This document shows, piece after piece, positions 4,261 to 11,060 of a DNA stretch of 63,575 bases. The stretch is taken from the NCBI RefSeq assembly GCF_900009135.1, contig NZ_LT797703.1, positions 1 to 63,575 of the forward strand. Direction: 5' to 3'. The translations under genes were made by a program, and so were the position numbers. A model generated the notes under the pieces. It saw only the letters and a list, made by a program, of their open reading frames with translations, had not been told where the DNA came from and ran no database searches. The stretch's first letter is position 1. The number at the start of each line of letters is the position of its first letter. The DNA is from Planktothrix sp. PCC 11201 (GTDB taxonomy: Bacteria > Cyanobacteriota > Cyanobacteriia > Cyanobacteriales > Microcoleaceae).

Positions 4261-4593
4261 TTAAACATTGGAGCGGTTCAAAAAGTGTGAATCTAAAACT
4301 TTTTTAACAGAATCACTTAAGATTTGAATTTGATTTTCCTCCAAGTTTTCAGCCGCATTAAGTTCAGGTTCCGAGGCAATTTCTGTTAATTTAGAATTGA
4401 TTTGAGGGTTGACATCACAAAACTCAATAATAGCTTCCGATATAGATTCAATTCGATCAGAATCCGATTCCGTCTCGGAGTTATCCAAAACCATTTCTAA
4501 TCGAGTTAAATCATTTAAAACTTCTGCCGAAAATAGTTCGGGTTTTTGGGTGACAATTTCAGAAAAAAAGGTAATCATCTGTTGAGATTTCAT
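4261..4593 (-). CDS. Small acidic hypothetical protein
   Basis: No recognised family. About 110 residues, strongly acidic and helical (many E, D, N, S), no membrane segment or Cys cluster. The start chosen is the internal ATG at 4593 (MKSQQMITF), which has AGGA about 11 bases upstream; an ATG at 4635 would add 14 residues that look like translated leader. It is the last gene on the minus strand of the cluster that runs from 8426, but a 138-base gap to the coiled-coil gene leaves co-transcription uncertain. Confidence 0.6.
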   Translation of the reverse strand: MKSQQMITFFSEIVTQKPELFSAEVLNDLTRLEMVLDNSETESDSDRIESISEAIIEFCDVNPQINSKLTEIASEPELNAAENLEENQIQILSDSVKKVLDSHFLNRSNV

Positions 4594-4731
4594 AGCAATC
4601 GGTATCCTGACTAAGATTGACAAAGATATTTTCATCCTAGAGTATCAAAAATTGCTCAAAAATGCCAATAATAAATTCCTCCGTTAGTCAAACTCAATCA
4701 AATTCAGACTTTCTCCCCATAGCAAGATTGC

Positions 4732-5808
4732 CTATTTGCCCTTATTGGGGTTTTTAGCCTGTTCTAAAGCAATTTCTTTTACCGCTTGGAACGAACTCAC
4801 ATTAGAAGCTCCTTCTATAGCTTTTACTGCTAAATCTTGAACCTGTTTTAAGGCAGAATCCAATTGTTTTGATAGGGTTTGTAGACGAGTATCTTGACTT
4901 TGGATGGTTTCTATTAAGGACTTAACCCGCAATTCATAATATTGTTTCTGACCTTCTACTTCTTTTGCCAGTAAATCTGATTTAATTTTAGCTTGATAAT
5001 TGCCAATATTCCTTCCCAGGTCTTTCCCCCGTTTGATATTATCTTCCAACTTTTGAGGAAATTCTGCTACTTTTGCTTTAACTTCTGCATAAAGTTTTTC
5101 TCGTTCAGCAATGGTTTTTTCTCGTTCTGACCATTGTTTTTCCTGTTCTTTTTGTAAATCTTCAAGCTGTTTATACAGGGTTTTCTGGGTTTGGGAATAG
5201 GTATCGCTATCAATATTTCGTTGTAATTCTAAGTTATAATTGTAGGTTTCTTGATCCCGCGATCGCGATTTCTTATAAGTTTCATTGCGTTCCTTAATTG
5301 TCCGTTGATATTCTTCCTGTTCTTTTTGCCATGCTTTTTGCTGTTCTTGAAATTCCTGTTCTAAGGTTTCTCGTCGTAGACTTAACTCCTGATCAAAGGT
5401 TTTTGCACTGGTTTCATAGCGTTGAACTAAAGTGTCTAAGGTATCATCTTCAACGGTTTCTAAATCATGTAATTCTGCCAATTGTTGCAATTCCTGGGTC
5501 ACATTTTGACGCAATTCTCCCAGTTTTATCGCTTCAGAGGTTAGTTGTTCTGATAATTCATTGATCGCACTCCCAAACCCAGTTTGTAATAGCAATAAAT
5601 GATCAATAGTTTGCTGCATTTTAGGTTTTTGGACAACGGGTGTAGGGGTCATGGGTTTAGTCTTTTCTTCACTAATAGGTTTAACTTCTTTGGGGGTAGA
5701 ACTCAGTTGTTTAATCTGGGTTTCTAAATCATTTTTTTCTTGAGCTAACTCTTGATAGGCTTCTAATAGTTCGGCTTTAGTATTGCGATCGCTTACTTTT
5801 TTAGTCAT
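4732..5808 (-). CDS. Long coiled-coil protein, paralogue A
   Basis: A 358-residue protein that is almost entirely charged, Gln/Glu/Lys-rich heptad-type coiled coil from about residue 100 to 330, with no transmembrane segment or enzymatic motif. It is a clear paralogue of the next upstream gene. Both begin with a KxxLLxAxQxxxxE segment and a predicted globular stretch, and both contain the block SDLLAKE....K..YEL.V.SL..TIQ.Q before a C-terminal QLxxxLKQxQDLAxxA. A filament, scaffold or phage-tape-measure-like role is conceivable but unproven. The ribosome site AAAGGAAAA precedes the ATG. Confidence 0.8.
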   Translation of the reverse strand: MTKKVSDRNTKAELLEAYQELAQEKNDLETQIKQLSSTPKEVKPISEEKTKPMTPTPVVQKPKMQQTIDHLLLLQTGFGSAINELSEQLTSEAIKLGELRQNVTQELQQLAELHDLETVEDDTLDTLVQRYETSAKTFDQELSLRRETLEQEFQEQQKAWQKEQEEYQRTIKERNETYKKSRSRDQETYNYNLELQRNIDSDTYSQTQKTLYKQLEDLQKEQEKQWSEREKTIAEREKLYAEVKAKVAEFPQKLEDNIKRGKDLGRNIGNYQAKIKSDLLAKEVEGQKQYYELRVKSLIETIQSQDTRLQTLSKQLDSALKQVQDLAVKAIEGASNVSSFQAVKEIALEQAKNPNKGK

Positions 5809-5865
5809 TTTATTTTCCTTTATTTGAGGTACGGGTAAGAACTAAAATCAGCTAAATTCTAGGGT

Positions 5866-6867
5866 TTATTTCGTCCCACTATTAGAACTATTTGAACTCG
5901 AAAAAGCCCGCATTGCTAAATCTTGAGCTTGTTTTAATGTTTCTTGTAACTGAGTAGTAATTTGAGTGATTTGTTCATTTTGTCGTTGAATGGTTTGCTC
6001 CAAAGATTGAACTTGTAACTCATAACCCTGTTTATTAGATTCCCATTCTTTAGCCAATAAATCTGATTTAACTTTTGCTTCTCTTGTGGCTTCTTGAATC
6101 GCTTCTTCCTTCGCCTGATCATGGGTTCGTTTCAGTTGATCTTCATAGCCGGAAACTTGCTGTTGATTTGCTTCAAATTCAGCCTGATTTCCCGTTATAA
6201 TTTGTTCTCTTTCTGTCCAATTTTTATCTTTTTCTTCGTTTAATTCTAATAAGTCCCGTTCTAATTTACGTCTGACATCTTCATATTCATCCGTTTCAAT
6301 TCTTCGAGTTCTTTCTAACTCATAATTATAATCAGCTTCCCCTTGTTCACGATTGCGGGTTAAACGTTCGGTTTCTTCCTCAACCGTAGTATCAAATTCC
6401 TGCTGTTCTTTTTCCCAGATTTTGCGTTTTGTAGTAATATCTTTTTGTAAAACTTCTTGACCCAGGGTGGCATTCTGTTCTAATAAACTTAATTTTTCCT
6501 GATGTTCTTGGGTTAAAATATGTAAAGCATCAGCCACAATCCGAATTTTATGAATTTGCTTAAAGTGCTGATTTTCGACCTCAATTCCTCGGTTTAATTC
6601 CTCTAATTTTGTTGATTCCGTTCGTAATTTTTCCGTTAATTCTAGGATAATAGAGCCAAAATCTAATTGTAAATCCGCCAACCCTTTAACAATACTATCG
6701 ACGGTATAAGTTGCCGCAGTTTCTAAAATTTGTTTGCCCTTTTCTTGCTCCGCTTCCTGTTCCTTGGTGGCAACTTTTGACTCGATGCGTTTTTGTTCAG
6801 CTAAAATTTGTTGAAAGGCGGCTAAAAGTTGGGTTTTGCTAGTGGGGACAAAAGGGGAATGGGTCAT
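5866..6867 (-). CDS. Long coiled-coil protein, paralogue B
   Basis: A 333-residue coiled-coil protein paralogous to the gene 57 bases downstream. The shared parts are the N-terminal KTQLLAAFQQIL segment, an LQLDFGSIILELTEKL helix matching LLLQTGFGSAINELSEQL in the partner, and the SDLLAKEW..NKQGYELQVQSLEQTI block. The start at 6867 (MTHSPF) is preferred over the ATG at 6882 because GGAG lies about nine bases before it and it aligns with the paralogue's start. The two probably arose by tandem duplication and may form a heteromeric coiled coil (inference). The C-terminus is a Ser/Asn tail. Confidence 0.8.
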   Translation of the reverse strand: MTHSPFVPTSKTQLLAAFQQILAEQKRIESKVATKEQEAEQEKGKQILETAATYTVDSIVKGLADLQLDFGSIILELTEKLRTESTKLEELNRGIEVENQHFKQIHKIRIVADALHILTQEHQEKLSLLEQNATLGQEVLQKDITTKRKIWEKEQQEFDTTVEEETERLTRNREQGEADYNYELERTRRIETDEYEDVRRKLERDLLELNEEKDKNWTEREQIITGNQAEFEANQQQVSGYEDQLKRTHDQAKEEAIQEATREAKVKSDLLAKEWESNKQGYELQVQSLEQTIQRQNEQITQITTQLQETLKQAQDLAMRAFSSSNSSNSGTK

Positions 6868-6931
6868 GATCAGTTTCTCCATTTACAACATCAGCTAGAC
6901 TAACAAGAATGAGTAGATATCCCGTTAAAGG

Positions 6932-7297
6932 TTAATTTTGTTTTCGTAGTTGAGTAACAATATCTTGATATTTTTCAGTCGGTACTGGATCAAGATGGGT
7001 GGGATTTTTAGCGATCGCTTGTAGAATCTTTTGACAATTCTGACAACGATTTCCTTCCCAACAATAGCAATTTTTAACTGAGTTTAGCAATAAACTTTGC
7101 AGGTGTTGATTTTGGTCTAACAACGCCTGATAATTGCGCTGAACCGATTGAATTACTAAAGATAAATGCTTAATATCTTCACCGATATTTTCCAAATCGT
7201 GCATCGTATCTTGACGAACTTGATAGGTTAATTCTCCGGTTTGAATAAATTGATGTTCAAGTGAATCACCAGGTTTCAAGTGAATTATTTTTTTCAT
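6932..7297 (-). CDS. Hypothetical protein with a Cys-cluster motif
   Basis: A 121-residue protein of unknown family. Residues 1-70 are helical (HDLENIGEDIKHLSLVIQSVQRNYQALLDQNQHLQSLL). They are followed by a compact cysteine cluster CYCWEGNRCQNCQKI at about residues 78-92. The C-X-C-X5-C-X2-C spacing suggests a zinc or Fe-S knuckle. It lies between the 231-residue gene and the coiled-coil pair with short gaps (64 and 49 bases), consistent with one transcript. The function is unknown; a structural or nucleic-acid-binding adaptor is possible. Confidence 0.72.
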   Translation of the reverse strand: MKKIIHLKPGDSLEHQFIQTGELTYQVRQDTMHDLENIGEDIKHLSLVIQSVQRNYQALLDQNQHLQSLLLNSVKNCYCWEGNRCQNCQKILQAIAKNPTHLDPVPTEKYQDIVTQLRKQN

Positions 7298-7361
7298 ATT
7301 TTCCTAGAACAAAAAAATAGGAGGCGGGAAAATATCCAGATATTCACCCGCCCTCAATAAC

Positions 7362-8057
7362 TTACACAGAAACGGCATCTACAGCCGGAGGTAATGCTAC
7401 CTCTTGCACGGAATTTAACATTAATTTAGAATGTTCCTCTCCTTTCGCATAAGCCGCCATTAAACAGGCAATTTCATGGGGAGGTAAATTATCTAAACAG
7501 ACCATTTTTCGAGTTCCTTCTAAGTCAATCATCCGTGATAAATTACTCGGATCGGATAAAACCGCCGCCGCTTGTTCGACAATCGACCAATCCGTGCGTT
7601 CCTGCCAAGACCATTTTAAACTATAATAATTAATGGGTTTTACAACTCCATTTTCATCAGGTTTCTGGCCGGAATGTTTGCTGAATTCAGGGATAAAAAT
7701 TCCCGTTGCAGGTTCCACCCCTCGGGCTTGAACCGAAGCCACTAAACGGTTGAAATCACTTAATCCCCGAGATTTTAAATAAGTGACCATGACGACACCT
7801 TTCGGTAATTCTCCCGATTCAGCAACCCACCAAATTTGTCCCCATAAAGTGTGTTCTGTTTGTCCTAAACTGCCAAAAAATTTGCTAAATTTCAAGATAG
7901 TCATGGAACATTTAGAACCATAATCCGTGTCTCCAATTGTCCACTGTCCCGACTGACAATTATTGCGAACAGCAATTGGAATTTCAGGCACTAATAGGGC
8001 TTCTTTCGGTTTTGCACCAAAGACAGTAAACGTCGCTCTTTCTAAGGTTTTAGTCAT
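7362..8057 (-). CDS. Hypothetical 231-residue protein of the XRE/ImmA-linked cluster
   Basis: I do not recognise a family. The protein looks globular and Trp/aromatic rich in the middle (TEHTLWGQIWWVAESGELPKG, YYSLKWSWQERTDW), with no signal peptide and no obvious catalytic triad. A helical segment (PPHEIACLMAAYAKGEEHSKLML) precedes a hydrophobic C-terminal tail. The ribosome site AAGGAAAAG is eight bases before the ATG, almost the same leader as for coiled-coil paralogue A, which supports common regulation. A replication, recombination or plasmid-type accessory role is only a guess. Confidence 0.75.
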   Translation of the reverse strand: MTKTLERATFTVFGAKPKEALLVPEIPIAVRNNCQSGQWTIGDTDYGSKCSMTILKFSKFFGSLGQTEHTLWGQIWWVAESGELPKGVVMVTYLKSRGLSDFNRLVASVQARGVEPATGIFIPEFSKHSGQKPDENGVVKPINYYSLKWSWQERTDWSIVEQAAAVLSDPSNLSRMIDLEGTRKMVCLDNLPPHEIACLMAAYAKGEEHSKLMLNSVQEVALPPAVDAVSV

Positions 8058-8165
8058 TTTCTTTTCCTTAATAATTCAGAATTTTTGCACTAATTTTCCC
8101 TATCAAGGCGAGTTGAGAAGGATCTCAATTTTCTCGCCTAAATTTTAATTAATTTGGAAAATATC

Positions 8166-8426
8166 CTATCGAATTAAATGGGATTGTTTTTCCGGTTCGG
8201 GATAGGTATATAAAGGCTGTTGTTGAGCTTTGAGAAGGTTTAAAACTCCTAACAAATGCTCTAACAAATGGGTATGGGCGGTGGTAAAATGAATACTAAA
8301 TCCTTCCCCATCCCTGGCATAACCTGGACAGACTAAGGATGCAGAACTTTGTTCTTCATGGATGGCAATATAAAGCCAATCCTCGTCTTCTAATTTGTAG
8401 TGAGTATCTGTCCAAGTTCTGAGCAT
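8166..8426 (-). CDS. Small hypothetical protein, first gene of the cluster
   Basis: An 86-residue protein with no recognised family. It carries an acidic start (YKLEDEDWLYIAIHEE), a central GYARDGEGFSIHF strand pair and a Leu-rich helix (HTHLLEHLLGVLNLLKAQQQ). It is the promoter-proximal gene of the minus-strand cluster and faces the XRE regulator across a 320-base region with two matching inverted repeats. By position it is the gene most directly controlled by that regulator (inference). Confidence 0.65.
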   Translation of the reverse strand: MLRTWTDTHYKLEDEDWLYIAIHEEQSSASLVCPGYARDGEGFSIHFTTAHTHLLEHLLGVLNLLKAQQQPLYTYPEPEKQSHLIR

Positions 8427-8559
8427 GGCATTTTCCTCCGGTATGGATTTTGGTTTTTTTACTAAAACCTCAATCCCTAATTAATCGGGTGTTTTAATCA
8501 CTCAATTCAGGTTGAATCATTAGACCTTTACGACAAAAGCGGTTTGTGGCTTTTGGGTA

Positions 8560-8575
8560 TTGAACTTTTATTCAA
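8560..8575. promoter_or_regulatory. Candidate XRE operator 1 (TTGAA-N6-TTCAA)
   Basis: The 16-bp sequence TTGAACTTTTATTCAA is an inverted repeat with 5-bp arms and a 6-bp AT-rich spacer. A second site with the same arms and nearly the same spacer lies at 8697. Both are in the region shared by the XRE gene and the minus-strand cluster, where a repressor of both directions would bind. A related TTCA..TGAA element occurs near 8505-8517. Confidence 0.55.
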
Positions 8576-8696
8576 CTTCCCCTATCTTAGCCAATGTTGA
8601 TGTAATCGTCAAGTCCCAGAGGAAAAATTTTTTTGATCCCGATTTCCCCATCTCTACCCCTTGGTGACTCGTAAGGAGTAGACTGGTGGTAGTGGG

Positions 8697-8712
8697 TTGA
8701 AATTTTATTCAA
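8697..8712. promoter_or_regulatory. Candidate XRE operator 2 (TTGAA-N6-TTCAA)
   Basis: TTGAAATTTTATTCAA differs from operator 1 by a single base in the spacer. It lies 35 bases before the XRE start codon, a position suited to autorepression. Confidence 0.55.
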
Positions 8713-8746
8713 ACCAGAGTATTATCGGAATCGGGAGGAATGTACT

Positions 8747-9085
8747 ATGGAACAAACCTTTGGAAATCTAATTCGCCAAGCGCGGAAAGAGAAATTCTAC
8801 TCACAGCGTCAGTTAGCGGCATTGCTGGAAGTGGATTTCACCTATTTATCCAAGCTAGAGAATGACCGCGCAGACTACTCTCCTAAAGAAGATGTAATTA
8901 GGGGTTTAGCAAGAAATTTGGGTTTAGATGAGGAGGAATTAATCTTTTTGGCGGGGCGAATACCTCAGCATTATGAGACATTTCTCAAAGAAAATAATAA
9001 GAGTATGACGGCACTATTCCGCCGAATGCAAGAAAATCCAAACTTTGCCCAGCAAATCTTTGAGGCAGCGCGGGAGGTTGAATAA
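8747..9085 (+). CDS. XRE-family helix-turn-helix regulator
   Basis: A 112-residue regulator. An XRE/Cro-CI type HTH covers about residues 6-60 (IRQARKEKFYSQRQLAALLEVDFTYLSKLEND). The C-terminal half (residues 65-112) is helical and ends AREVE, the usual short tail of repressors paired with ImmA-like proteases. A GGGAGGAA ribosome site precedes the ATG. The stop codon is followed immediately by the GTG of the metallopeptidase gene, so the two are co-translated. By analogy with ImmR-ImmA it is probably a repressor inactivated by its partner. Confidence 0.9.
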   Translation: MEQTFGNLIRQARKEKFYSQRQLAALLEVDFTYLSKLENDRADYSPKEDVIRGLARNLGLDEEELIFLAGRIPQHYETFLKENNKSMTALFRRMQENPNFAQQIFEAAREVE

Positions 9086-9721
9086 GTGAGTATCCTGAAA
9101 CCCTATCGCTTTTATCGTCGAGAGTCGATTGAGCGGCGGGCAAATGAGATTTTGCGACGGATGCAAGCCACACCCAATTTTGCCCCAGAGTGGCCGTTTG
9201 AGGCTTCTTTGGTGGCAGATTTCCTGGATTTAGGGGTGGTTTGGGATTGCATTCAACCCGATGAGCAGGGAGCGATCGCAGCTCGAATTTTGCCAACAGA
9301 ACGACTAATCGAAATTAATGAAGAAATTCAAGAGAAACCCAAGGGCTTTATTGAGTCTACTATTGCCCATGAAATCGGTCATTGGGTCTTACATATTAAT
9401 CATGATCAATTAGAGTCTGGAGGGTCAGAAACTGCGGACAATCTATTAGATGAACCCTTTGTTTGTCGAGCTACTATTGAAGATACCCATTTAGCATCTA
9501 TTGAATGGCAAGCCCAATATTTTGCCAGTTGTTTATTAATGCCTCGCCCGATTTTAGAAGCCAAACGAGTCGGCCGAGATTTAACTAATTGGCAACATCT
9601 TTATACCATTAAAGATGAGTTGGGGGTGAGTATTTCTAATTTAACCAATCGTTTACAGGAATTAGGTTGGATTTCTATTCCTAAAGGAGAACGCACGATT
9701 TACCCGGGAAAAGCTGCCTAA
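9086..9721 (+). CDS. ImmA/IrrE-family zinc metallopeptidase
   Basis: A 211-residue protein with the gluzincin motif HEIGH at residues 95-99 and a downstream E140 in EWQAQYFASCLLMPRP, the ImmA/IrrE metal-ligand pattern. Known members cleave a cognate XRE repressor (ImmA of ICEBs1, IrrE/PprI of Deinococcus) and so switch on mobile-element or stress genes. The GTG start directly abuts the XRE stop codon. The C-terminus (VSISNLTNRLQELGWI) is the typical small helical domain. The divergent coiled-coil cluster is the likeliest regulated target besides the pair itself (inference). Confidence 0.92.
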   Translation: MSILKPYRFYRRESIERRANEILRRMQATPNFAPEWPFEASLVADFLDLGVVWDCIQPDEQGAIAARILPTERLIEINEEIQEKPKGFIESTIAHEIGHWVLHINHDQLESGGSETADNLLDEPFVCRATIEDTHLASIEWQAQYFASCLLMPRPILEAKRVGRDLTNWQHLYTIKDELGVSISNLTNRLQELGWISIPKGERTIYPGKAA

Positions 9722-9773: not shown

Positions 9774-10025
9774 ATGCCCAATCTGTCCCTTCCCTATCCC
9801 GATGATTTGCTCGTTACTTCTGGTAAATCTCCCGAAAGCTTAGAAGCTGAATTGCTCTTTTTGCTGGCAGTAAAGCTATTTGAGTTACGGCGACTATCTC
9901 TCGGAAAAGCCGCCGAATTTTGTCGAATGAATAAACTGCAATTTATGTACGAAATCGGACGATTACAAGTTCCAGTAATCAACCTAGATGATGACCAAAT
10001 TGCTGACGAATTACGGGATGATTAA
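9774..10025 (+). CDS. UPF0175 family protein (antitoxin-like HTH)
   Basis: An 83-residue protein typical of UPF0175. It has an N-terminal PDDLL...G.SPE strand-turn, a long ELLFLLAVKLFELRRLSLGKAAEFCRM segment with an HTH, and an acidic tail. Family members are commonly the DNA-binding antitoxin of a pair whose second gene is a PIN-like DUF3368 toxin. Here the next gene is not DUF3368 but an unrelated 101-residue protein. It follows the ImmA gene by 52 bases on the same strand. Confidence 0.82.
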   Translation: MPNLSLPYPDDLLVTSGKSPESLEAELLFLLAVKLFELRRLSLGKAAEFCRMNKLQFMYEIGRLQVPVINLDDDQIADELRDD

Positions 10026-10094
10026 TCAGATTATTATTGCCGATAGTAGTCCTCTGATATCCAATAAATACTTGAATTAAGGATAATATCAATC

Positions 10095-10400
10095 ATGGCT
10101 CGAAAAGTCTTAGGTATTCATTTTGTTTGTAGAAATGGGCTTAATATTGAAGAATTAGGAGACGGTCGATTCAAAAGTGGGGATTGGAAAGTATCGGAAG
10201 AAACGGCTAATACCGCACTCTATTTAGCACTTCACGACCATAAAAACAGTTCATCTTATAAACAAGGAATAATTGAACGTTGGGAACACTATGACGGTGA
10301 CGGAGGCAGAATCATTTTTTATGTAAAAGAATTTGATAGACCGCTAGAATGGGTTGGTGATGGAACAGGAGAAAAAGGATATTGTTGGTCAGAGAACTAA
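10095..10400 (+). CDS. Hypothetical 101-residue protein next to UPF0175
   Basis: No family recognised. The protein is Gly/Asp/Trp rich with several beta-type segments (VLGIHFVCRNG, GDGRFKSGDWKV, GGRIIFYVKEFDRPLEWVGDG) and one helix (SEETANTALYLALHDH). AAGGA lies ten bases before the ATG. Its place between an orphan UPF0175 antitoxin-like gene and a VapBC pair makes it a possible toxin or accessory of the first, but nothing in the sequence proves this. Confidence 0.65.
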   Translation: MARKVLGIHFVCRNGLNIEELGDGRFKSGDWKVSEETANTALYLALHDHKNSSSYKQGIIERWEHYDGDGGRIIFYVKEFDRPLEWVGDGTGEKGYCWSEN

Positions 10401-10453
10401 GGTGATAAGAACATAAAGTAACAGTGTAGAATGGTAGAAAGGAGGAACACAAG

Positions 10454-10681
10454 ATGAACATTTCTATCATCGATGAAGTTGTTGAACAGCTAAAAGTCAT
10501 GCCGGAGGATTTGCAATGGCAGGTACTGGAATTTGCGCGAACATTAGTAAAAACAGAACTTCGAGGGACAACAGGGCAGAAATTGCTGTGTTTTGCTGGC
10601 TCTATTCCTCTTGATGACCTTGAATTTATGCGTCAAGCTATTGAGCAAGATTGTGAAAGGGTAGATATTAATGAGTGGTAG
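10454..10681 (+). CDS. VapB-type antitoxin (DUF2281-like)
   Basis: A 75-residue antitoxin. The N-terminal half (DEVVEQLKVMPEDLQWQVLEFARTLV) is the DUF2281 signature of cyanobacterial antitoxins. The C-terminal half (GSIPLDDLEFMRQAIEQDCERVDINEW) is the toxin-neutralising tail common in VapB partners. A good AAAGGAGG ribosome site lies upstream, and the gene overlaps vapC by 11 bases, which couples their translation. Confidence 0.85.
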   Translation: MNISIIDEVVEQLKVMPEDLQWQVLEFARTLVKTELRGTTGQKLLCFAGSIPLDDLEFMRQAIEQDCERVDINEW

Positions 10682-11060
10682 ATATTTGTTGGATACTAAT
10701 ATCATTATTGCTCTTTTTGCCGATGAAACTGTAATCAAAAATAACCTGGCTCAATCCAATGAGGTTTTTATTGCCAGTATTACTATTGGCGAATTGTATT
10801 ATGGTGCTAGAAAATCAGGACGAATTCAAGCAAATTTGATCAGAATTGAGCAGTTAGTTTCCAGCAGTACAGTGCTGGTATGTGATAGTGAAACTGCTCA
10901 GAAATATGGCGATATTAAAAACAGGTTAAGACTTAAAGGTCGTCCTTTGCCTGAAAATGATATTTGGATTGCTGCCCTTGCACTACAACATCAGTTGATT
11001 TTAGTAACACGGGATGCCCATTTTCAAGAAGTTAATAACTTGCAAACAATAGCTTGGTGA
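10671..11060 (+). CDS. vapC: VapC-type PIN-domain toxin
   Basis: A 129-residue PIN-domain ribonuclease. The acidic metal-binding residues are in their expected places: D8 in LLDTNIII, E41 in TIGELYYGA, D97 in ENDIWIAA and D115 in VTRDAHF. VapC toxins cleave RNA, often tRNA, when the antitoxin is degraded. It seems intact, so the pair may be functional. The start overlaps the antitoxin gene. Confidence 0.92.
   Translation: MSGRYLLDTNIIIALFADETVIKNNLAQSNEVFIASITIGELYYGARKSGRIQANLIRIEQLVSSSTVLVCDSETAQKYGDIKNRLRLKGRPLPENDIWIAALALQHQLILVTRDAHFQEVNNLQTIAW

Follow-up and report, generated by a model that had tools for sequence, protein, structure and literature searches.

Between positions 4,261 and 9,721 of a 63,575-nucleotide stretch of the cyanobacterium Planktothrix sp. 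PCC 11201 (contig NZ_LT797703.1, positions 1 to 63,575 of the forward strand; hereafter the window), the genes for an XRE-family repressor and an ImmA/IrrE-family zinc protease face six minus-strand genes, all eight lying where the initial annotation had placed them (Table 1). The six genes, in leftward order p86, p231, cys121, ccA, ccB and acid124, are separated by gaps of ~50-110 nt, and ImmA has a GTG start directly after the XRE stop. We consider that the locus is best explained as an inducible filament operon under a switch of the CapH-CapP type, induced by damage or invasion, and this is the reading to which we incline. That the switch controls the operon is very probable, and the strongest evidence that XRE would control the coiled-coil pair ccA-ccB is that the operators and the switch travel together across genomes. 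Both the type of switch and the filament family are already known; their combination appears to be new, since it did not appear in our paper searches.

The switch and its operators

Three sites of the form TTGA-N8-TCAA lie in the shared promoter region. The initial annotation had described two of them, at 8560-8575 and 8697-8712, which are real and indeed differ by one spacer base; it had missed the third, at 8597-8612, and had given the motif as TTGAA-N6-TTCAA. In the window alone the two-site pattern is weak (5 of 100 shuffles reach two), and a plain promoter scan of the region gave no excess over shuffles (16 against 14.6). The pattern is conserved in orthologues, and it is therefore on conservation that the case for the operators and promoters rests. 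The p86-XRE intergenic region was taken from 26 loci, one of which was dropped for exceeding 700 bases (L055, 1,527 bases); the remaining 25, all distinct, come from the window's family and from L026 and L028. Each contains three or four TTGA-N8-TCAA sites, and the total of 85, against 0.21 expected under a first-order Markov model, is drawn from related genomes that are not independent. The starts of O1 and O2 are 37 bp apart in 24 of the 25 regions and 38 bp apart in the other, and the distance from the start of O3 to XRE is 50-56 nt across the 25. The operon promoter has its -35 box within O2 and the XRE promoter has its own within O3, with a 17-nt spacing in 24 of the 25 for each promoter. 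From this geometry of operators and promoters we infer that XRE binds O1-O3 and represses both its own gene and the operon. A genome-wide scan for TTGAA-N6-TTCAA, which had been proposed as a check, showed no enrichment, with 24 sites against 33 for the reversed control, and TTGA-N6-CGTCAA gave 11 (4 + 7) against 34 (19 + 15) for its control. On these counts the window's genome gives no grounds for claiming a wider regulon.

ImmR-ImmA systems, of which that of ICEBs1 is an example, remove their repressor by an ImmA-type protease, and regulation of this kind had been suggested for the locus. The pairing of a repressor with an ImmA-type protease stands, but the profile match is to the CapH-CapP type: in PADLOC, capP is the best match of ImmA and capH the second best of XRE (Table 1). 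Unlike an element of the ICEBs1 type, the locus has no integrase, conjugation or excision gene; none of these, and no structural gene, was found in the locus or its right flank (ten proteins in all), nor was any integrase or phage family among the listed Pfam families (25 of 79) of the 47 other window proteins. Readings of the locus as a prophage or as an integrative and conjugative element were set low, there being no integrase, structural or conjugation genes beside the switch. A search of solved structures with XRE matched one immunity repressor. The HEXXH zinc-protease motif of ImmA is intact, reading HEIGH in 15 of 15 aligned sequences. CapP is reported to be a protease that is activated by single-stranded DNA (ssDNA) and cleaves CapH, such regulators controlling operons of the cyclic oligonucleotide-based antiphage signalling system (CBASS) and other immune operons (PMC13373217). 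Like CapH-CapP, the switch consists of an XRE repressor and an ImmA/IrrE-type protease beside a regulated operon, and in relatives its family adjoins known defence genes. It differs in its cargo, which is a coiled-coil pair with small proteins, none of them a known immune effector. By analogy with CapP, ImmA may well respond to ssDNA, which we regard as a reasonable expectation, and cleavage of XRE is presumed on the same analogy.

Travel of the switch, the operators and the cargo

The initial annotation had treated the switch and the gene cluster as belonging together, and this holds well beyond the window. A p231 alignment scan of the collection of genome contigs, made through one peptide pattern, found 58 loci, of which 42 have XRE and ImmA alongside and 30 have all seven core genes. 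The genera with the switch at p231 include Planktothrix, Microcoleus, Tychonema, Kamptonema, Arthrospira, Lyngbya, Okeania and Trichodesmium. Among the 16 p231 loci without the switch, five are cassettes whose upstream part is cut off by the end of a contig (L086, L091, L096, L097 and L123), and ten are solitary p231 paralogues, eight of them from Okeania. The other, L103, is on a 3-kb contig that is likewise cut upstream; it has no cassette gene downstream and groups with the viral locus L124 in the p231 tree. The site of the cassette varies: phosphoribulokinase is the neighbour in the window and in L043, the same neighbour is in opposite orientation in L045, and five other cassettes have no phosphoribulokinase within the fetched stretch. 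The accessory gene acid124 is present in all eight fetched Planktothrix-group cassettes and in one Lyngbya locus (L057).

The cargo can also be lost. In one genome of the genus Planktothrix (G001, locus L225, 8168-8321) the genes from p86 to ccB are gone, while XRE-ImmA and all three sites are retained. The similarity begins ~30 bases ahead of the start codon of p86, and right beside the retained operators is the end of a gene that encodes a DUF3854 domain. In L045, ccA is gone and ccB is reduced to a fragment. The Cys-cluster gene of one Okeania cassette (L092, 3208-4363) shows up as a run of five open segments, one after another.

Co-occurrence was further examined in samples of 386 genomes of the phylum, with thresholds of E <= 1e-20 for ImmA and E <= 1e-22 for XRE. 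ImmA was found in 35 genomes, XRE in 43, p86 in 13 and ccB in 58. In all 13 of its genomes p86 is beside XRE-ImmA, with one intervening gene in G038; G008 has in addition a broken second copy of p86 next to a weak XRE match. Of the 58 ccB genomes, 10 belong to the window's family and G042 has the full cassette; for the other 47, 34 ccA-ccB loci were fetched and 13 were left unfetched. XRE-ImmA is beside ccA-ccB, without p86, p231 or cys121, in six of these 34 loci, and XRE alone in seven, the XRE of L203 having been identified later since the caller of open reading frames (ORFs) had at first masked it. In G038 and G254 the switch is on a contig other than that of ccA-ccB.

Sites of the form TTGA-N8-TCAA are found near ccA in 14 of the 15 loci whose genome has a cassette-type XRE (E <= 2e-51), including the two unlinked cases, and in none of the 19 loci in genomes without one, the division into cassette-type and distant XREs being partly by construction as the XRE profile (A12) includes many of the top-ranked XREs. 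The sole exception among the 15, L209, has an ImmA frame that contains stops. Among the 19 are those of G055 and G376, whose one XRE is a distant one of the Argonaute side (E about 1e-40), and L186, where a weak XRE match (2e-5) is beside ccA. Before L203 and the unlinked cases were reassigned the counts were 11 of 12 against 3 of 22 (Fisher P 1.3e-5, for loci that are not independent). As to whether homologues of the cluster mostly occur without a switch, which the initial annotation had named as a way to disprove it, the answer is thus divided: p86 is always beside the switch and ccA-ccB is without a cassette-type switch in 19 of 34. Since p86 tracks the switch, whereas ccA-ccB often occurs without it and p231 is found on viral contigs and plasmids, the cluster is modular. 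Judged from these distributions, it is a widespread filament pair, a protein of mobile-element type and small partners, apparently placed under one switch.

The same switch family has other cargo. A search with ImmA gave 39 places, 19 of them in loci already known; of 19 further loci, 16 were fetched (those of G146, G277 and G124 were omitted). In 12 of the 16, the switch is divergent from a gene for a Cas4-like nuclease and one for a prokaryotic Argonaute, which PADLOC places in class II, the Argonaute side having been assigned by PADLOC for five loci, by Pfam for three and by protein comparison for all twelve. The remaining four are L225 (an orphan switch), L228, L238 (a broken ImmA with three sites) and L239, where a GmrSD-like gene is accompanied by weak XRE and ImmA matches. 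In L230 and L231, the two Argonaute loci whose XREs are close, XRE is preceded by two and three TTGA-N8-TCAA sites, respectively. The Argonaute SeAgo and a Cas4-like nuclease are reported to act against the plasmid RSF1010 in Synechococcus elongatus, and a word search of the main text of that report finds neither XRE nor ImmA (PMC10653904). The window locus is like these Argonaute loci in its switch family and, for two of them, in the operator motif; it is unlike them in having neither an Argonaute nor a nuclease gene.

The filament pair, p231 and the small partners

The two coiled-coil proteins ccA and ccB are paralogues, as had been noted, with 31% identity between them; E, K, Q and R make up 41% of their residues, and they are poor in G and P. 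Both match phrog_29668, a PHROG without known function (9.4e-21 for ccB), and gp268 of Bacillus phage G is a distant relative (3.8e-26 with the ccB hidden Markov model, where the best of 100 shuffles gave 9.9). When viral sequences were scanned with the alignment of the coiled-coil proteins, no relative came up. Slr7083, Fm7001 and filament proteins like them were considered as possible relatives of the pair. The genes near ccA-ccB in family f25, which we consider to be Nostocaceae, include a His_biosynth gene together with those of a response regulator, a histidine kinase and PhoU (Pfam, in the single locus L196), and neighbouring genes of matching size are found in 15 of 16 f25 loci. In Anabaena, sphR, sphS and phoU are all4503, all4502 and all4501 (PMC7564538). 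Since the f25 neighbours fit all4501-all4503, ccA and ccB should by synteny be alr4504 and alr4505. We take Alr4504 and Alr4505 to be the proteins named ZicK and ZacK in FEBS J. With this, it is quite likely that ccA and ccB belong to the ZicK/ZacK family: in both cases there is an adjacent pair of paralogous coiled-coil proteins with both members present, and the family match is by synteny. The difference is that the 16 f25 loci are without switch, operators, p86, p231 and cys121, whereas the pair in the window sits behind the switch. ZicK and ZacK are described as heteropolymers that depend strictly on each other and could lend stability to the linear trichome (PMC7766704). In proteomics of Nostoc treated with β-N-methylamino-L-alanine (BMAA), Alr4505 rose 20-fold and Alr4504 4.35-fold (PMC8147232), and another report on BMAA gives rises of 6.67- and 3.57-fold for Alr4505 together with 3.03 and 3.7 for RecA (PMC7354497). 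We regard these rises as hints and not as tests.

The initial annotation had found no recognised phage gene in the cluster. This is so for curated families, since none of the six cargo proteins scores above the curated cut-offs in Pfam or NCBIfam and their PADLOC scores are only weak, and the cargo was rightly called unfamiliar. It does not hold for relatives, given the match of ccA and ccB to phrog_29668 and the viral and plasmid relatives of p231. The nearest named relative of p231 is in Planktothrix paucivesiculata PCC 9631 (97%). Further relatives are on 17 IMG/VR contigs, where ten share 59-79% identity with it in the best segment and several are near-identical to one another, and more distant ones are on four cyanobacterial plasmids, two of them of 11-14 kb. 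A set of 67 proteins from four of the viral contigs includes matches to phage lysozyme, DnaB, helicase, Bro-N and DNA methyltransferase families. The role of p231 itself may be linked to DNA replication. XRE, ImmA, p86, cys121, ccA and ccB are all absent from the 17 viral loci within the fetched stretch (up to 8 kb each side). No host operator was found in up to 500 bases upstream of p231 at these loci, so that viral p231 is apparently outside the control of this switch. The p231 tree has at least four changes of label between virus and host, two of them forced by well-supported branches in a tree whose bootstrap is unsettled; because of these changes, p231 has probably moved between viruses and cassettes more than once.

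Several features of p231 genes stand apart from this argument. In five genomes p231 is split at the same site, codon 40, by an insert that is ~2.4 kb in the three measured, and RF00029, the Rfam model for group II introns, has a match at the 3' end of every insert, beside the second part of p231. The Okeania paralogues are in a repeated unit made up of a gene of ~600 residues, a gene of 146-267 residues and then p231, with no confident family. What comes ahead of p231 on the viral contigs L124, L131 and L132 is a gene of another family, 547-748 residues long. The neighbours of p231 on viral contigs and in Okeania mostly have no informative family.

As for the small partners, the cysteines C77, C79, C85 and C88 of cys121 are invariant in our alignments, and the protein is putatively zinc-finger-like. 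The solved-structure search found no relative of p231, p86 or ImmA, and for cys121 one match at chance level. The ratio of nonsynonymous to synonymous substitution rates (dN/dS), from comparison of the window with three relatives, is 0.03-0.46 across all eight genes, and p231 has the lowest value among the cargo genes.

Table 1. Features of the switch-operon locus in the window, with related loci elsewhere (positions preceded by an L number are those of that locus)
Feature	Position	Strand	Remarks
XRE-family repressor, CapH-like	8747..9085	+	112 aa; HTH_3 1.2e-10, capH 8.5e-10
ImmA/IrrE-family zinc protease, CapP-like	9086..9721	+	211 aa; Peptidase_M78 3.2e-10, capP 3.8e-17
p86	8166..8426	-	small protein; first gene of the operon
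p231	7362..8057	-	no match in families or solved structures; relatives on viral contigs and plasmids; dN/dS 0.06-0.07
cys121	6932..7297	-	small Cys-cluster protein, C-x-C...C-x2-C (from alignments)
ccA	5866..6882	-	coiled-coil; synteny counterpart of Alr4504; dN/dS 0.11-0.15
ccB	4732..5808	-	coiled-coil, paralogue of ccA; synteny counterpart of Alr4505; dN/dS 0.10-0.11
acid124	4261..4635	-	small acidic protein, isoelectric point 4.3; accessory operon gene; dN/dS 0.21-0.46
Operator O1 TTGAACTTTTATTCAA	8560..8575	.	just downstream of the operon -10, over the inferred transcription start
Operator O2 TTGATGTAATCGTCAA	8597..8612	.	contains the operon -35 box
Operator O3 TTGAAATTTTATTCAA	8697..8712	.	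contains the -35 box of the XRE promoter
Predicted operon promoter	8584..8612	-	-35 TTGACG (8612-8607), 17 nt, -10 TAAGAT (8589-8584)
Predicted XRE promoter	8697..8725	+	-35 TTGAAA (8697-8702), 17 nt, -10 TATTAT (8720-8725)
RF00029 match in p231	L049 10821-10897	-	
RF00029 match in p231	L104 8925-9001		
RF00029 match in p231	L106 7420-7496		
RF00029 match in p231	L109 4388-4464		
RF00029 match in p231	L123 2568-2644		
Okeania repeated p231 unit	L115 159-3225		
Okeania repeated p231 unit	L117 6188-9609		
Okeania repeated p231 unit	L122 6603-9624		
Argonaute and Cas4-like nuclease loci divergent from XRE-ImmA	L226, L227, L229-L237, L240		

Proposed mechanism and its alternatives

In the mechanism that we propose, XRE would sit on the three operators in the resting state and silence both its own gene and the operon. 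A build-up of ssDNA, through DNA damage or the entry of a phage or plasmid, would activate ImmA, which would then cleave XRE and release the operon. The proteins ccA and ccB would co-assemble into an intermediate-filament-like heteropolymer, as reported for ZicK and ZacK (whose identity with this pair is presumptive), delivered together with p86, the Cys-cluster protein and p231. The likely purpose would be to contain or survive invading or damaged DNA, and this is the least certain step. We prefer defence over plain stress repair because of the other cargo of the switch and the link of p231 to mobile elements; a defence role is possible, and we stop short of calling it probable. More tentative still is a filament-based immune system, in which the ssDNA switch would induce a heteropolymer that traps or walls off invading, replicating DNA with the help of p86, the Cys-cluster protein and p231; we consider this doubtful. 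If it were true, the p231 of phages and plasmids would be its target or a counter-measure, and lineages such as Nostocaceae, which are switchless, would use the filament for trichome shape.

A number of points weigh against an inducible, defence-related filament operon. Induction, XRE binding, cleavage and immunity are predictions throughout. The operator sites are not enriched in the window's genome, the XRE classes behind the co-travel were partly set by construction, and the 19 loci without a cassette-type XRE form the larger part of the 34. Ten of the 12 Argonaute-side loci have no TTGA-N8-TCAA in the XRE intergenic region. No known defence gene is beside the switch in the window locus, the 47 other window proteins lying outside the defence scan; the listed Pfam families of these 47 (25 of 79) are of housekeeping, signalling and TPR types. 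Searches of families and of solved structures gave no convincing match for p231, p86 or cys121. Furthermore, the naming of Alr4504 and Alr4505 as ZicK and ZacK is presumptive, and in the 16 f25 loci neither switch nor operator is beside the filament pair. The reported role of the pair there is in trichome shape, and alr4504 and alr4505 are listed as NtcA-regulated (PMC8147232). For these reasons ccA-ccB need not be a defence effector.

One alternative is a DNA-damage-induced checkpoint of cell shape or division, SulA-like and not concerned with immunity, in which the filament proteins would stabilise or arrest the trichome during repair. ZicK and ZacK are reported to be elongasome-associated, and SepJ to interact with both (PMC8262864); the joint rise of Alr4505 and RecA under BMAA (PMC7354497) also fits, as do the minimal loci that consist of XRE, with or without ImmA, and ccA-ccB only. 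A checkpoint leaves unexplained why p231 is on viral contigs and plasmids, why the same switch family is at Argonaute loci and why one Planktothrix genome (L225) has lost the whole cargo, and we think it rather unlikely. It is also conceivable that the locus is a domesticated phage or plasmid fragment, with XRE-ImmA as an old switch of lysogeny type and p231 as a leftover replication gene. The p231 relatives on viral contigs (59-79%) and the phage families found there, the plasmid copies, the label changes in the p231 tree and the differing places of the cassette in related genomes would all agree with such an origin. However, the locus genes include neither an integrase nor a structural gene, the 17 viral loci carry no other cassette gene within the fetched stretch, XRE-ImmA divergent from ccA-ccB occurs without p231 in other families, and dN/dS is low, so that we regard this origin as improbable. 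Lastly, operators on both promoters, and cargo that is lost or broken in relatives (L225, and L045 with ccA absent and ccB a fragment), could point to a device of the abortive-infection or toxin kind, with either the coiled-coil pair or p231 becoming toxic on derepression. Since family searches gave no toxin match for the locus proteins, and since the f25 pair are resident genes without this switch, such a device seems very improbable.

The inducible filament operon, as we read it, would join DNA-damage switches of defence type with the intermediate-filament-like cytoskeleton of bacteria, which were unconnected in the papers that we found. In the open-access literature searched we found neither the combination nor the operator code, the p86-p231-cys121 module or the sharing of the switch with Argonaute loci, and no paper joining cyanobacteria, ImmA, XRE and coiled-coil. 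TTGA-N8-TCAA, in three sites, provides a testable regulatory code that is common to the filament operon and two Argonaute loci, and p231, an unannotated gene of cyanobacterial viral contigs and plasmids, gains a first functional context. A protein pair known for trichome shape may have begun as, or may also serve as, a response that foreign or damaged DNA induces, and a larger claim would be possible if the filament proves to be an immune effector.

Two observations concern the surroundings of the cassette. Just past ImmA (window 9774-11060) there is a UPF0175 gene and an ORF pair that by eye resembles a toxin-antitoxin pair; of the seven other Planktothrix-group loci, three also have UPF0175 and the 101-residue ORF with the cassette. 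A dense array of 20 transfer RNA genes lies shortly past the cassette in L106 (11358-13832), which is from a Microcoleus metagenome-assembled genome.

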